This document shows, one piece after another, positions 14,717 through 20,838 of a stretch of 35,449 nucleotides of DNA. This DNA is from Nitrospirota bacterium (GTDB lineage Bacteria > Nitrospirota > Thermodesulfovibrionia > Thermodesulfovibrionales > UBA6898), in assembly GCA_003252075.1 (NCBI GenBank), contig QKDO01000004.1:1-35449 (forward strand). The letters are read 5' to 3'. Position 1 is the first letter of the stretch, and each line of letters starts with the position of its first letter. A program made the position numbers and the translations under genes. The notes beneath the pieces are model-generated. The model made no database searches. It saw only the letters and a list, made by a program, of their open reading frames with translations, and had not been told where the DNA came from.

Positions 14717-15895
14717 ATGCCATCAATCGTCAAAAACGGCATTGATCTCCTTGAGAAAAAATGGCCTAGGCAACTGAGAAATGCCCGTGCCGGCCTGTTG
14801 GTTCATCCTGCATCCATAAACAGTAGCTTTTCACACTCAATAGACATATGCATGAAGTCTGACAGACTCACTGTTACATCTATCTTTGGACCGCAGCATG
14901 GATTGTGGGGGGAAACACAGGATAATATGATAGAATGGCAGGGCTTCCGGGATAAAAAAACAGGGCTTCCGGTCTACAGCCTCTATGGAAAGACCAGAAA
15001 ACCCTACCCCGAGATGCTCGACGGCATCGACGTCATGGTCATAGATCTCCAGGATGTCGGTAGTCGCTATTATACTTTTATATGGACCATGGCTCTTGTC
15101 ATGGAGGCATGCGGGGAGATGGGCAAGTCTGTAGTTATCCTTGACCGTCCCAACCCTATCACCGGATATCATATCGAAGGTCCCGTGCTCAGCCCAGAAT
15201 TCGCATCTTTTGTAGGTCTTCATAGGCTTCCGGTAAGACATGGTATGACCATCGGTGAGATGGGCCATTATCTCAAAGACTCTTATTATCCTGATCTGGA
15301 CTTCATTGTCTTGCCGATGCATGGATGGAAACGAACAATGTGGTTTGATCACACGCTACTCCCCTGGGTACTTCCATCTCCGAATATGCCCACTATTGAA
15401 GCAGCCACTGTCTACCCTGGCATGTGCCTCCTTGAGGGGACTAACCTGAGCGAGGGGAGAGGTACCACGCGTCCGTTTGAAATCTTTGGGGCTCCTTTCA
15501 TTGACCCTGCTGCTCTGGTGGAAAAGCTGCACAGCTACAGGCTTCCCGGTGTAATATTCAGGCCTCTTCATTTCCTGCCAACTTTTCAAAAGCATGCCGG
15601 CAAAGTCTGCGGAGGGGCCCAGATACACGTAATAGAAAGAGAAAAATTTAAGCCATTCAAAACTGCAACAGCCATACTGAAGGTCATTTATGGGTTGTAT
15701 CCCGATAAGTTCCGATGGAAAAGTCCTCCCTATGAATATGAAAAAAAGCTGCTGCCAATTGATATTCTGGCTGGAACTGACAGCCTGAGAAAGGATATCG
15801 AGAAAGGGAGAGACCTTGCCTCCATGGAATTATGGTGGAACAAAGGTCTGCATGCTTTTGATAAGAAGATCCGAAGCAGGTATCTCATCTATTAG
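14717..15895 (+). CDS. DUF1343 / NamZ-type exo-beta-N-acetylmuramidase (GH171-like)
   Basis: A 392-residue member of the family of Bacillus YbbC/NamZ, which releases terminal MurNAc from peptidoglycan fragments. Recognisable blocks are LLVHPAS, TSIFGPQHGLWGETQD (about 55-70), LPVYSLYG, DVMVIDLQDVGSRYYTF, VILDRPNPI and LLEGTNLSEGRGTTRPFE. No signal peptide or lipobox is visible, so this copy would act in the cytoplasm on imported muropeptide sugars, unlike the secreted B. subtilis enzyme. There is no ribosome-binding site. It follows THEP1 by 25 bp, and its stop codon overlaps the start of the MurU/AmgK-like fusion by one base, strongly suggesting one pathway. Catalysis is inferred from the family. 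Confidence 0.85.
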   Translation: MPSIVKNGIDLLEKKWPRQLRNARAGLLVHPASINSSFSHSIDICMKSDRLTVTSIFGPQHGLWGETQDNMIEWQGFRDKKTGLPVYSLYGKTRKPYPEMLDGIDVMVIDLQDVGSRYYTFIWTMALVMEACGEMGKSVVILDRPNPITGYHIEGPVLSPEFASFVGLHRLPVRHGMTIGEMGHYLKDSYYPDLDFIVLPMHGWKRTMWFDHTLLPWVLPSPNMPTIEAATVYPGMCLLEGTNLSEGRGTTRPFEIFGAPFIDPAALVEKLHSYRLPGVIFRPLHFLPTFQKHAGKVCGGAQIHVIEREKFKPFKTATAILKVIYGLYPDKFRWKSPPYEYEKKLLPIDILAGTDSLRKDIEKGRDLASMELWWNKGLHAFDKKIRSRYLIY

Positions 15896-17817
15896 TGGAA
15901 GCGATCACAGCATTCATACCCGCTGCAGGGCTTGGAGAAAGACTTAAGCCTATAACGGATAAGATACCAAAACCCCTTTTGCCCATCCTGGGCGAGCCGA
16001 TAATCGAGACAGTCCTTGCCAGAATTTCCCGGCTGTCACCGAGCGTCATAGCCGTGAATATGCATCATCTCTGGGAACAGATGCAGGCTTGGGCAGCCTC
16101 TTCTGCATACGCTCCGGTAATTTCTCTCTTTCATGAGAATCCAATACTCGGCACTGGCGGCGCAATTAAAAATGCATCTTCATCCCTGAAAAGTTCTGCA
16201 TTTATCGTGCATAATGCAGACATCCTTTCAGATATTGACCTATCATCCCTTATCGAGAAACATATAGAATCAGGCAATATCGCAACTCTTGCCGTGCATC
16301 ACCTTAATAAATTCAACAATGTCTGGATAGACAAACAAGGTAACCTGCATCATGTCGGCGCACAGATCCAGGGAACAGAAGCTGCATTATGTAAAATTGC
16401 ATTTATGGGAATAGCGGTATACTCTCCTGAATTTCTGGATTTTCTGCCGATAGGCCCATCGAGCGTAATCGATGCCTGGCTCAGGGCAATTGCAGCAGGG
16501 AAAACCATCGGCACCGTCGACTTCTCAGGCTCTGGCTGGTCAGATGTCGGCACGCCGAGTGCATACGCAGCAGCTGTCTTTGCTGCATTGAAGGAACAGG
16601 GCAAAACAGTTTATGCGCATGCTTCTGTCGACTGTGGCAAGGCTGAGCTGCAGGGGAGTGTCATTATCGAACAGGGAGGGTCGGTTGGCTTCGATGCCTT
16701 TGTCAGCAACAGCATTCTGCTGCCAGGTGCGCACGTCTCGCCTGGATCAAGAATAGAACATAGCATTTTAGGCGGGGGATTTCATGTTGCGCTGGATCCT
16801 GCCGACATCTTTGGCACCGTACCGGTTTCTGCGCCATTATTAAAGATGTGCGGCAATCAGGAGGGCAGGGTCAACGCAGTATGTATAGGCACCGGAGGTT
16901 CTGACAGAACCTATTATCGGATACCGTGCAGGGAAACCACATATGTTCTCATGAGCTGCACAGCGTCGGACAGAGACTATGAGCGTCATCTTGTTCTCTC
17001 CCAATTCTTAAGAAAACACGGGGTTCCTGTCCCGGAGATGTTTGGAACAGATAAACAAGAGAAACAGGCCCTCTTCGAGGACCTTGGTGATCTTTCGCTG
17101 TATTCTTGGCTCGCCTGCAGGCGACCGCCAGACCACATAATAAGCATGTACTGCAAAATTCTCGATCTCCTGGTGCTGCTTCATACCTCGGTCACGGACC
17201 ACGCTGCAGAGTGCACGCAATTACGGGAGCGGAACTTCGACCGGGAACATTTGAGATGGGAAAGCAGGTATTTCATGGAGAACTTTGTCGGCAGCATATT
17301 TCATATTCACGCAGGCGAACAGCTGCTTCTTAATGATGATTTTGAAAGTCTGGCCCGTACTGTTGCTGCGTTCCACAAGGTAGTCCTGCATAGGGATTTC
17401 CAGTCACAAAATATCATGATTGTGCACGGCAATGAGCCGCGCTTCATAGACTTCCAAGGTGCCCGTATGGGGCCTGCTGCGTATGATATCGCATCCCTGC
17501 TCTGGGATCCGTATTGCTGTCTACAAGACAGCATGCGCGACACATTGCTTTCCTACTACATCATGCGCATGAAAGAAACACAGACGGAATTTGGTGAGCG
17601 GGCATTTAGGGAAGCTCTCCTGCCCTGCGGACTTCAGCGCCACATGCAGGCACTCGGTGCCTACGGCTTCCTCTCTCAGGTAAAAGGAAAGAAATATTTT
17701 CTCCGGCATATTCCTCAGGCTCTGGCGTATCTGAAGCGGGAAAGCGAAGAAGCTCGTGACACATATCCTGCCCTTCACCGCCTGGTTGCGGCCATTCATG
17801 AAAAAACTGCATATTAA
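15895..17817 (+). CDS. Fused nucleotidyltransferase / sugar kinase, MurU-AmgK-like (MurNAc salvage)
   Basis: A 640-residue two-enzyme fusion. Residues 1-235 form an NDP-sugar pyrophosphorylase-type domain with AGLGERLKPIT (11-21), KPLLPILGEPI (26-36), GTGGAIKN (86-93) and NAD (107-109). Residues about 245-305 look like a short left-handed beta-helix. Residues about 325-640 form an aminoglycoside-phosphotransferase-like kinase with a Gly-rich GTGGSDRTYYRI loop (332-343), catalytic LHRDFQSQN (498-506) and IDFQGARMGPAAYDIASLL (518-536). In Pseudomonas the separate enzymes AmgK and MurU turn free MurNAc into UDP-MurNAc. The same two activities, adjacent to NamZ, make that role likely here. A hexose-1-phosphate pathway remains possible. 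Start GTG overlaps the namZ stop (TAGTG). Confidence 0.85.
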   Translation: MEAITAFIPAAGLGERLKPITDKIPKPLLPILGEPIIETVLARISRLSPSVIAVNMHHLWEQMQAWAASSAYAPVISLFHENPILGTGGAIKNASSSLKSSAFIVHNADILSDIDLSSLIEKHIESGNIATLAVHHLNKFNNVWIDKQGNLHHVGAQIQGTEAALCKIAFMGIAVYSPEFLDFLPIGPSSVIDAWLRAIAAGKTIGTVDFSGSGWSDVGTPSAYAAAVFAALKEQGKTVYAHASVDCGKAELQGSVIIEQGGSVGFDAFVSNSILLPGAHVSPGSRIEHSILGGGFHVALDPADIFGTVPVSAPLLKMCGNQEGRVNAVCIGTGGSDRTYYRIPCRETTYVLMSCTASDRDYERHLVLSQFLRKHGVPVPEMFGTDKQEKQALFEDLGDLSLYSWLACRRPPDHIISMYCKILDLLVLLHTSVTDHAAECTQLRERNFDREHLRWESRYFMENFVGSIFHIHAGEQLLLNDDFESLARTVAAFHKVVLHRDFQSQNIMIVHGNEPRFIDFQGARMGPAAYDIASLLWDPYCCLQDSMRDTLLSYYIMRMKETQTEFGERAFREALLPCGLQRHMQALGAYGFLSQVKGKKYFLRHIPQALAYLKRESEEARDTYPALHRLVAAIHEKTAY

Positions 17818-18508: not shown

Positions 18509-19441
18509 ATGAAGCGATATAATTCCTTCGGGGCATATATGCGAAAGACGTTTGGCACCACGGTCTACAAGGTGAACGTGGATGCTGGTTTTACCTGCCC
18601 CAACCGAGACGGCACGCTTGGCTTCTCGGGCTGCATATACTGCAACAACGACAGCTTCAGGCCGAACTCCTGCAAGCCCTCTATTTCTGTTTCCGACCAA
18701 ATAAGCAAAGGCATCACGCACACGAAAAGACGATTCAAGGCTAATAAATTTCTTGTCTATTTTCAGGCATACACCAATACCTACGCACCGGTCGATGAAC
18801 TGGACCGGCTGTACCGGGAAGCTCTTGCTGCCCCGGATGTGATCGGCCTCGCAATCGGCACGCGTCCGGATTCCGTTGACCTTCAAAAGATAGAACTTTT
18901 TGAGTCCCTAGCATCAAAATTCTTCATTCTGATCGAATACGGACTCCAGTCCATGTATAACAAGAGCCTTGAGTTTATCCAGCGTGGTCACGACTTTAGT
19001 GCGTTTCTCCGCGCTGTGGAGATGACGAGAGGAAGGGGCATACAAATCGGAGCTCACCTGATTGCGGGCTTTCCCACGGAGACCCGCGATGAAACACTTG
19101 CCATGGCCGGGGAGATATCACAGCTTCCCATAGGCTTCCTCAAAATGCATCAGCTCCAGATAATCAAGGACACGCCCCTCGCCGGACTCTACCGGGAAAA
19201 CCCGTTCCCTGTCTTTTCATACCAGGCATACCTCGATTTCGTCGCTGATTTTATCGAACGGACATCCCCGCACATCGTCTTTCAGCGGCTCTTTGCAACG
19301 GCGCCTGACGAAATCCTCATAGCGCCGGAGTGGGGTAGGAACAGACATCAGATCCTGCAGGATATAGAGAGGAACCTTGCGGCAAGGAATGCTGTCCAGG
19401 GAAGAATCTTCACCCCGCGTACCGTAACGGTCCGGGACTAG
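18509..19441 (+). CDS. TIGR01212 (YhcC-type) radical SAM protein
   Basis: A 310-residue radical SAM enzyme with the unusual wide cluster motif of the Elp3/YhcC group: C-x11-C-x2-C in FTCPNRDGTLGFSGCIYC (about 30-48). The opening YNSFGAYMRKTFGTTVYKVNVDAGFTCPNRDG, IEYGLQSM and GAHLIAGFPTETRDE are family blocks. It binds a [4Fe-4S] cluster and SAM; the substrate of this family is not known. The start chosen agrees with the family and lies 6 nt after a -10 box. It converges with the nitroreductase gene, and the two stop codons overlap inside a perfect palindrome. Confidence 0.93.
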   Translation: MKRYNSFGAYMRKTFGTTVYKVNVDAGFTCPNRDGTLGFSGCIYCNNDSFRPNSCKPSISVSDQISKGITHTKRRFKANKFLVYFQAYTNTYAPVDELDRLYREALAAPDVIGLAIGTRPDSVDLQKIELFESLASKFFILIEYGLQSMYNKSLEFIQRGHDFSAFLRAVEMTRGRGIQIGAHLIAGFPTETRDETLAMAGEISQLPIGFLKMHQLQIIKDTPLAGLYRENPFPVFSYQAYLDFVADFIERTSPHIVFQRLFATAPDEILIAPEWGRNRHQILQDIERNLAARNAVQGRIFTPRTVTVRD

Positions 19442-19447
19442 TCCCGG
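19432..19447. repeat. Perfect 16-bp palindrome spanning two convergent stop codons
   Basis: CCGGGACTAGTCCCGG is self-complementary over all 16 bases, and its central CTAG supplies the TAG stop codons of both the radical SAM gene and the opposing nitroreductase gene. There is no T-tract, so a classical terminator is unlikely. As RNA it forms only a loop-poor hairpin. Confidence 0.6.
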
Positions 19448-19941
19448 TAGACGATCAGTTCCTTCAACGTTTTTCGCTTTGTAGTTCGCGGCTTCTCAGC
19501 AGGCCAGCCAAGCGCGATAACGGCCATGAGTTCAAGGTCGTTCACAAGACCGAGAAGCTGCTTTAACAAGGCATTGCTCCTGATGATCTCTCCGAGCCAT
19601 ACTGCGCCCAAACCCAGAGAGTGGATCTCAAGAAGCATGTTCTGCAAGCAGGCGCCAATGCCCTGGATGTCCTTTTCCCGGTGATAGATCTTTTCCGTGG
19701 CGATAAAGACAGGTAGGAGCACCTGTGCCCCTCGAACCACTGTATCATATTGGGTTAGTTTCGATATCTCTGTGATGAGTTCCCTGTCCTTCACAACCGC
19801 AAACCGCCAAGGCTGGTTGTTCAGGCCTGACGGAGCCCACCTGCCGGCCTCAAGTATCCTATCGATCAGCTCATCGGATACCGGCTCAGACGTGAACCTT
19901 CTTACGCTGCGGCGTGACCTTATCTCCTCGATGATGTCCAA
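19438..19941 (-). CDS. Nitroreductase-family flavoprotein
   Basis: A 167-residue FMN-dependent NAD(P)H oxidoreductase of the small, one-domain nitroreductase type. Markers are the N-terminal IRSRRSVRRFTSEPV (about 7-21), which binds the FMN phosphate, LEAGRWAPSGLNNQPWRFAVV (31-51), the central GACLQNMLLEIHSLGLGAVWLG, and the C-terminal ALGWPAEKP. The physiological substrate cannot be read from sequence. The start codon is TTG with a GGAG site 5 nt upstream. It is divergent from the NifU-like gene and its stop overlaps that of the radical SAM gene. Confidence 0.92.
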   Translation of the reverse strand: MDIIEEIRSRRSVRRFTSEPVSDELIDRILEAGRWAPSGLNNQPWRFAVVKDRELITEISKLTQYDTVVRGAQVLLPVFIATEKIYHREKDIQGIGACLQNMLLEIHSLGLGAVWLGEIIRSNALLKQLLGLVNDLELMAVIALGWPAEKPRTTKRKTLKELIVYRD

Positions 19942-19963: not shown

Positions 19964-19995
19964 GACTTGTCAATTTCTTATGACAAAGGAGTTAC

Positions 19996-20256
19996 ATGGA
20001 GACTATAGAAAAAGACATCGAGAAAATCAAGCAGATCATCAATGAACTGAAGTCCCAATACACGAGCCTGGGAGGAGATATTGAGTTTGTGGACGTGAAA
20101 GACCATGACGTTCGGATACGGCCGACCGGCTACTGCTGGCGTTGACACATGACCCGCATGGACCTGGTCAGGGTCATACAGGAAAGGGTAAGGGCAGAGA
20201 TTCACTGGGTAAATATGGTTACTGTCGCACCCCAGAACACAACGTCCAAAAAATGA
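19996..20256 (+). CDS. Candidate NifU-like selenoprotein with in-frame TGA (CxxU)
   Basis: With the TGA at 20143-20145 read as selenocysteine, this is an 86-residue NifU C-terminal-type (Nfu) domain. Before the TGA comes SLGGDIEFVDVKDHDVRIRPTGYCWR, matching the family pattern GGD(V/I)E.VDV....V.(V/I)R.TG.C. The TGA falls exactly where the family has the second Cys of CxxC, giving C47-W-R-U50. After it, HMTRMDLVRVIQERV then RAEIHWVNMVTVA fits the family's helix and final strand. Evidence for readthrough: the frame continues for 36 codons, ends in an ATGA overlap with the next gene (which has no ribosome-binding site of its own), and a hairpin starts 3 nt after the TGA. The start has an AAAGGAG site. 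Alternative: a nonsense-inactivated gene yielding a 49-residue peptide. Nfu domains carry or transfer Fe-S clusters. Confidence 0.72.
20143..20177 (+). promoter_or_regulatory. SECIS-like hairpin after the in-frame TGA
   Basis: Three bases after the TGA (20143-20145), ATGACCC (20149-20155) pairs with GGGTCAT (20171-20177) as a 7-bp helix. An inner GAC/GTC helix (20161-20163 with 20167-20169) is capped by CTG. The apical loop lies 18 nt after the TGA, within the range of bacterial SECIS elements. The small loop is not an exact match to the E. coli fdhF GGU loop, so SelB recognition is inferred, not shown. Confidence 0.5.
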
Positions 20257-20705
20257 AGCAACCATTTCTGATCGCCGTAATCGGCGGACGCAAGGCAGGA
20301 CGCTCACTAAGAAAAGAAGCCGAAGAAGTCGGCAGACTTATAGCTCTTAACGGCAGCGTGCTCGTAAGCGGAGGCCTGCACGGCATCATGGCGTCGGCAT
20401 CAAAAGGGGCAAAAAAAGCGGGTGGACTCACAATCGGCATACTGCCGCAGGACCACAAGAGAAACGCAAACCCTTATGTCGATGTAGCTATCGCAACTGG
20501 ACTGGGTATCGGCAGAAATGTTATCATAGCGCGCACAGCAGATGCCCTGATTGCAGTGGGTGGCGAGTACGGAACGCTCTCTGAAATTGCCTTCGGACTC
20601 CAGATGAAAAAGCCGGTGGTCGGCATCGGCACGTGGGAAATCCGGGGCGTCATTCCTGCGAAAAATGCAGAAGACGCCGTTAGCAGGGTCTTTAAGCTGT
20701 TATAG
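20253..20705 (+). CDS. TIGR00725 family protein (LOG/Rossmann-like)
   Basis: A 150-residue Rossmann-fold protein related to the LOG (lysine decarboxylase-like, cytokinin-riboside phosphoribohydrolase) superfamily. It has IAVIGGRKAGR (8-17), VSGGLHGIMASASKGAKKAGG (38-58) and GGEYGTLSEIAFGL (103-116), the last corresponding to PGGxGTxxE of true LOG enzymes. Many members are of unknown function, so no substrate is claimed. Its ATG overlaps the stop of the upstream NifU-like frame (ATGA) and it lacks its own ribosome-binding site, which implies translational coupling to that frame. The open frame runs upstream to 20142, but those residues are a shadow of the NifU-like gene. Confidence 0.85.
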   Translation: MKQPFLIAVIGGRKAGRSLRKEAEEVGRLIALNGSVLVSGGLHGIMASASKGAKKAGGLTIGILPQDHKRNANPYVDVAIATGLGIGRNVIIARTADALIAVGGEYGTLSEIAFGLQMKKPVVGIGTWEIRGVIPAKNAEDAVSRVFKLL

Positions 20706-20761: not shown

Positions 20762-20838
20762 GCCCCCTTAGCTCAGTAGGATAGAGCACAGGTTTCCTAA
20801 ACCTGGGGCCGCATGTTCGAATCATGCAGGGGGCACCA
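20762..20838 (+). tRNA. tRNA-Arg (anticodon CCT)
   Basis: A complete cloverleaf: acceptor GCCCCCT (20762-20768) with AGGGGGC (20828-20834), D-arm GCTC/GAGC, anticodon stem CAGGT/ACCTG around loop TTCCTAA with anticodon CCT at 20796-20798, T-arm GCATG-TTCGAAT-CATGC, discriminator A and an encoded CCA (20836-20838). It reads AGG codons. No integrated element or attachment-site duplication was seen next to it. Confidence 0.97.

Follow-up and report, generated by a model that had tools for sequence, protein, structure and literature searches.

The window, by which we mean the whole stretch of 35,449 nucleotides that was analysed, carries at positions 19996–20256 of the + strand a gene for a small Nfu-domain protein of 86 amino acids, here termed Sec-Nfu, which is interrupted by an in-frame TGA (20143–20145, + strand) at residue 50, the putative selenocysteine (Sec) codon. 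The start codon is the ATG at 19996, which is preceded by a ribosome-binding site graded as strong (Shine-Dalgarno sequence aaaggag, 19985–19991, + strand; a similar aaggag precedes the start in several relatives); the frame remains open for 36 further codons past the internal TGA and closes with a second TGA at 20254–20256. The internal TGA completes a CxxU motif, Cys47-Trp48-Arg49-Sec50 (20134–20145, + strand), with His51 immediately following, and a SECIS-like hairpin lies shortly downstream (20161–20175, + strand). Because translation table 11 gives only a truncated ORF of 49 amino acids, the gene is easily overlooked by standard annotation.

Upstream on the same strand is a gene for a radical SAM protein of TIGR01212 (18509–19441), a family whose current NCBIfam name is MnmL/YtqA, tRNA modification; between it and Sec-Nfu lies a nitroreductase-family gene on the opposite strand (19438–19941, − strand). 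The downstream gene encodes a TIGR00725/SLOG cluster 4 Rossmann protein (20253–20705, + strand) and begins with an ATG at 20253 that overlaps the Sec-Nfu stop codon (ATGA), as the initial annotation had described. A tRNA-Arg (CCT) follows just downstream of this gene (20762–20838). Elsewhere in the window (14717–17817) a NamZ-type exo-muramidase precedes a fused nucleotidyltransferase/APH kinase (MurU-AmgK-like), which combines MurNAc recycling activities in one protein of 640 amino acids.

Read through the TGA, the product is a complete Nfu/NifU C-terminal domain (PF01106; E=3.3e-13, 50 bits with a cut-off of 27), and this match and the alignment agree with the earlier proposal that the TGA stands in an Nfu-type domain at the second Cys of the CxxC. 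A PF01106 profile search of its own assembly (a metagenome-assembled genome, MAG, of 2.86 Mb in 146 contigs, 96% complete) recovered the Sec-Nfu locus at 42.5 bits, with '1 TGA' inside the match, together with three ordinary Nfu domains elsewhere in the genome. The TGA aligns with the second CxxC Cys of all three, and Cys occupies this position in every ordinary Nfu compared from the same and related genomes. Given the three other Nfu domains, Sec-Nfu supplements the ordinary CxxC proteins of this genome and is not their replacement. The predicted structure (U was replaced by C for this and for the tree and profile searches) has the Nfu fold with a pLDDT of 80 and a helix that begins at residue 48; its six best PDB matches are all NifU-like, the best being Arabidopsis CnfU and the human NFU1 C-terminal domain (CTD). 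The position of the CxxC at the start of this helix is filled at the aligned place in Sec-Nfu, in the form CxxU.

A protein search of 101 genomes, the window genome included, yielded 13 further full copies (48–90% identical), and a Sec-Nfu profile run over 396 genomes of the phylum added eight more from a different class, in which 8 of 14 genomes carry the gene. All have TGA at the motif codon. The resulting set of 22 full copies (14 from the first group and eight from the second class), all from Nitrospirota MAGs of these two classes, excludes a partial copy in genome G007 (L035, G007:C45, about 41019) that breaks off into Ns before the TGA, leaving the codon unreadable. Identity of the other 21 copies to that of the window ranges from 37 to 91%. 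No Cys, TAA or TAG was found at the Sec codon in any of the 22, and no Cys form of the subfamily was found among the 396 phylum genomes, the 101 relatives or the 14 second-class genomes. A pattern scan of 84,980 species genomes in which Cys or Sec was allowed returned ten records, all Nitrospirota MAGs with TGA and one of them labelled Thermodesulfovibrionales; the pattern was strict and missed the second class too, and divergent Cys forms are not excluded by it. Two weak tblastn matches considered as possible viral copies (L195, L196) were set aside; L195, the only one examined, looks like unrelated phage sequence.

That the TGA might be an assembly or sequencing error had to be considered for a single MAG contig, one of 146. 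The same TGA in 21 other, separately assembled genomes, named GenBank records among them, refutes this, and we regard the chance of such an error as negligible.

Residues C47, U50, H51, T53 and R54 are invariant in all 22 copies. The pN/pS ratio is 0.27 before the TGA and 0.36 after it (0.13 and 0.19, respectively, within the genus), indicating purifying selection on both parts of the gene. The family-like sequence that the initial annotation had noted over the 36 codons past the TGA is therefore conserved across genomes. These observations bear on whether the TGA is simply a stop codon, which would make the locus either a pseudogene or the source of a truncated half-domain, with translation reinitiating at the next gene. 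TGA is a usual stop in this genome and also terminates Sec-Nfu itself; against this, the TGA and the coding sequence beyond it are maintained under purifying selection in 22 genomes, and neither TAA nor TAG ever takes its place. Relatives with a real stop and random sequence after it, which had been named in advance as a finding that would refute read-through, were not what the comparison returned.

In a tree with 28 ordinary Nfu sequences, a branch supported at 97/94 sets the Sec copies apart, subject to the short alignment and long branches. The search for homologues with either Cys or TGA at this position, proposed with the initial annotation, thus gave TGA in every full copy and Cys in ordinary Nfu proteins; as far as the available sequences go, Cys/Sec exchange is demonstrated only against the latter, at 27–31% identity, with no Cys form seen in the same subfamily.

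The hairpin downstream of the TGA did not feature in the initial annotation and was found in this analysis. It reads GACCU-GGUCA-GGGUC, places its loop at a distance of 20 nt from the TGA and satisfies every criterion of the bSECIS model, namely a loop of 3–9 nt, a stem of 4–16 bp, a G in the first two loop positions, a spacing of 16–37 nt and an energy of −7.5 kcal/mol or lower (PMC13188914). The spacing of 20 nt and the G within the first two loop positions recur in all 22 copies, and the energy criterion is met in 21, the exception being G034 at only −5.7 kcal/mol. The stem is continuous over 4–8 bp in 17 copies and interrupted after 3 bp in the remaining five; within genus g1 the pairing is interrupted in four genomes other than that of the window.

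Across the 22-sequence alignment the hairpin has a covariation score of 0.296 versus a shuffled mean of 0.160, with 0 of 500 shuffles scoring as high, and controls in which the pairing partner was slid gave 0.003–0.096. One stem pair is A-U, G-C or C-G depending on lineage, and because both of its bases are second codon positions, the encoded amino acids change in step (Asp56/Val60, Gly56/Ala60 and Ala56/Gly60), which is how a coding sequence should behave if it is also constrained as RNA. Such covariation speaks further against a true stop at 20143. The 51-nt fold of the window copy is no more stable than its shuffles (z 0.04); the case for a SECIS element is one of comparison across relatives and not of fold stability in the window. 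The string GGACCUGG..CAGGU is present both after the Sec-Nfu TGA and after the UGA of selD. We considered whether selD shares the hairpin, and rejected this since the predicted fold at selD favours other pairings; the recurrence is only suggestive.

Machinery for Sec incorporation is encoded in the same genome. The selB (366 bits) and selA genes lie side by side on contig C9, and selD (341 bits; L152, G000:C5:2696–3616) carries a TGA in frame within the CAGU motif of its active site; the genome therefore encodes a second, classical selenoprotein, a Sec-containing selenophosphate synthetase. Of the tRNA-Sec gene (selC), this 96% complete assembly yielded only 3' fragments. Among the 22 carriers, however, tRNA-Sec was identified in 19 (12 other first-group genomes and seven of the eight from the second class), with ARAGORN in agreement for all six first-group carriers scanned, and it was not found in first-group carrier G011, whose assembly is 70% complete. 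SelB scored above the cut-off in 20 carriers (13 of 14 in the first group, seven of eight in the second class), and none of the 22 genomes lacked both. Thus the check for selA, selB, selC and selD proposed at the outset succeeded for three of the genes and found only selC fragments here, and the lack of selB and selC named as a refuting condition did not refute the proposal, selB being present in this genome and tRNA-Sec in 19 of the 22 carriers.

In some Nitrospirae tRNA-Sec is reportedly located inside or beside selB; it was not there in this genome. Searching the genome with the selC region of a relative likewise returned 3' fragments only, including a stretch of 65 bp on contig C71 (L122, G000:C71:29653–29717) that matches the 3' end of the relative's selC and its downstream flank at 88% identity. 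A second partial 3' copy was seen at L123 (G000:C123:31831–31861), and one of the two fragments lies near an apparent IS110-type transposase. The fragments look like remnants of the attachment sites used by elements that insert at selC, and we infer that the C71 stretch could be an attachment site duplicated by a mobile element; this could account for the assembly breaking off where the intact selC lies. Among the relatives, second tRNA-Sec-like genes were seen in G008 (L106, G008:C91:10675–10768; 57 bits) and G021 (L107, G021:C79:23364–23453; 54 bits), both of which hold a better one. Two SelB-family genes per genome are present in G066, G075 and G151, the second in G151 (L187, G151:C71:3540–4628) covering only the first 347 model positions at 329 bits.

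The absence of selC from this assembly is a further point in favour of a true stop, whereas SelA, SelB and SelD are all present; taken with the conservation and the covarying hairpin, we consider a true stop extremely unlikely. The conserved downstream sequence proves read-through as such and nothing more, leaving room in principle for decoding of the UGA by other means, such as a near-cognate Trp-tRNA or general UGA recoding. UGA cannot be generally recoded here, since genes including Sec-Nfu itself terminate with TGA, and the family residue at this position is Cys rather than Trp; with SelA, SelB and a Sec-containing SelD encoded and a hairpin that fits the bSECIS model, non-Sec read-through seems very unlikely. 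We are instead highly confident, in the absence of protein or selenium-labelling data, that the UGA at 20143 would be decoded as Sec, with the downstream hairpin, SelB and tRNA-Sec guiding the ribosome. The initial suggestion of a NifU-like CxxU selenoprotein is thereby supported by the TGA in 22 genomes, the covarying hairpin and the Sec machinery.

The gene neighbourhood is less uniform than the gene itself. The radical SAM gene is found upstream in 12 of 14 first-group loci; in f9 genomes and in G006 its end lies directly ahead of Sec-Nfu, so that a shared transcript is possible, whereas in most f1 genomes the two are separated by the reversed nitroreductase gene (eight loci). In the second class the upstream genes, recognised by eye from their sequence, are presumably rseP, ispG and proS. 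MnmL-type and IspG proteins are [4Fe-4S] enzymes, and such neighbours agree with a cluster-supply role for Sec-Nfu without proving it. The TIGR00725 gene is beside Sec-Nfu in only 5 of 22 loci. Coupling to this gene through the ATGA overlap had been offered as evidence of read-through; the overlap is real, but the arrangement is local and the argument is no longer needed.

The best reading of these data is that Sec-Nfu is a genuine new selenoprotein family, namely the Nfu cluster carrier in a CxxU form. It would be a stand-alone Nfu domain with Sec as the second cluster-binding ligand of the CxxC (GYCWRUH), which most likely dimerises like other Nfu proteins, holds a [4Fe-4S] cluster between the subunits by two thiolates and two selenolates, and passes it to anaerobic [4Fe-4S] enzymes, for example the neighbouring radical SAM MnmL-type protein. 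For such a dimeric carrier serving [4Fe-4S] enzymes, with cluster binding and transfer inferred from the family alone, we put the chances slightly above even.

As to function, the chief alternative is a true selenoprotein whose Nfu scaffold has given up cluster carriage and serves thiol-selenol redox chemistry instead, either through a CxxU selenenylsulfide pair or to detoxify peroxide or metals. Redox motifs of the CxxU type are common in prokaryotic selenoproteins (PMC13188914), the surroundings of the motif depart from ordinary Nfu with R49, H51, T53 and R54 conserved, a gene of the flavin nitroreductase family adjoins Sec-Nfu in eight loci, and ordinary Nfu proteins are present that could do the cluster carrying. 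Sec-Nfu nevertheless retains the Nfu domain in full, with its glycines and the two ligand positions, and its neighbours, the radical SAM protein MnmL and, for the second class, IspG (recognised by eye), are themselves [4Fe-4S] enzymes; a redox function remains possible but is the less likely of the two. To return to the cluster carrier, comparison across genomes shows a coding UGA conserved where ordinary Nfu have Cys, a SECIS-like hairpin under selection at the RNA level and a lineage equipped to decode Sec; Sec insertion, the mixed thiolate/selenolate cluster of a dimer and service to a subset of clients are inferred. A fuller version, for which we put the chances somewhat below even, is a dedicated SECIS-driven Nfu paralogue kept in two Nitrospirota classes alongside the ordinary CxxC Nfu proteins, with a bridging cluster held by selenolate and thiolate and a particular set of clients among radical SAM or other [4Fe-4S] enzymes.

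The Nfu family is among the most widespread of cluster carriers, from bacteria to human mitochondria, and Sec is rare in Fe-S assembly proteins. A selenol at a cluster-transfer site could alter the redox potential of the cluster, its lability and its response to oxygen; the small size of Sec-Nfu and its obvious Cys counterparts would open a natural selenolate cluster ligand to direct study. The initial annotation knew of no described NifU-like CxxU protein, and none emerged from the sources consulted: an inventory published in 2026, with 119 prokaryotic families and subfamilies of selenoproteins (PMC13188914), has no NifU/Nfu entry, and no NifU/Nfu selenoprotein appears in deep-Sep of 2025 (PMC12013277), a 2022 review (PMC9312934) or the GOS study (PMC2398784). 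Full-text literature containing NifU or Nfu with selenocysteine gave no relevant title, with subscription papers and preprints outside the scope of that search; unpublished database annotations could exist. Sec-Nfu thus appears to be a new selenoprotein family in which Sec incorporation is very likely, in advance of any bench data.

Sec-Nfu resembles the Nfu/NifU C-terminal family (PF01106; the NfuA C-terminus, human NFU1 CTD and Arabidopsis CnfU) in domain length, fold, conserved glycines and the position of the CxxC. It differs in its very short length, in standing alone, in the variable tail at its C-terminus and in its motif, GYCWRUHxTR with Sec for the second Cys, as opposed to GACxxCPxSxxT in ordinary Nfu, so that the residues past the motif also diverge (UHxTR versus CPxSxxT). 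Selenoproteins from Fe-S assembly families are known, as had been pointed out: the HesB-like selenoprotein (TIGR01911), related to A-type Fe-S carriers, is one, although its fold and family differ from those of Sec-Nfu and its motif is UxGP (PMC13188914). Sec is likewise predicted in the Fe-S-binding CopZ-like (2Fe-2S)-binding selenoproteins (cd10141) and the Fe-S cluster domain selenoprotein (NF005503) (PMC13188914), whose domains are unrelated to Nfu and whose motifs are GxUC, CU or UxxC. Finally, the CxxU motif itself is common to Sec-Nfu and thiol-redox selenoproteins of the SelW-like and AhpD-like types, but the folds differ, Nfu being neither thioredoxin-like nor of the AhpD fold.
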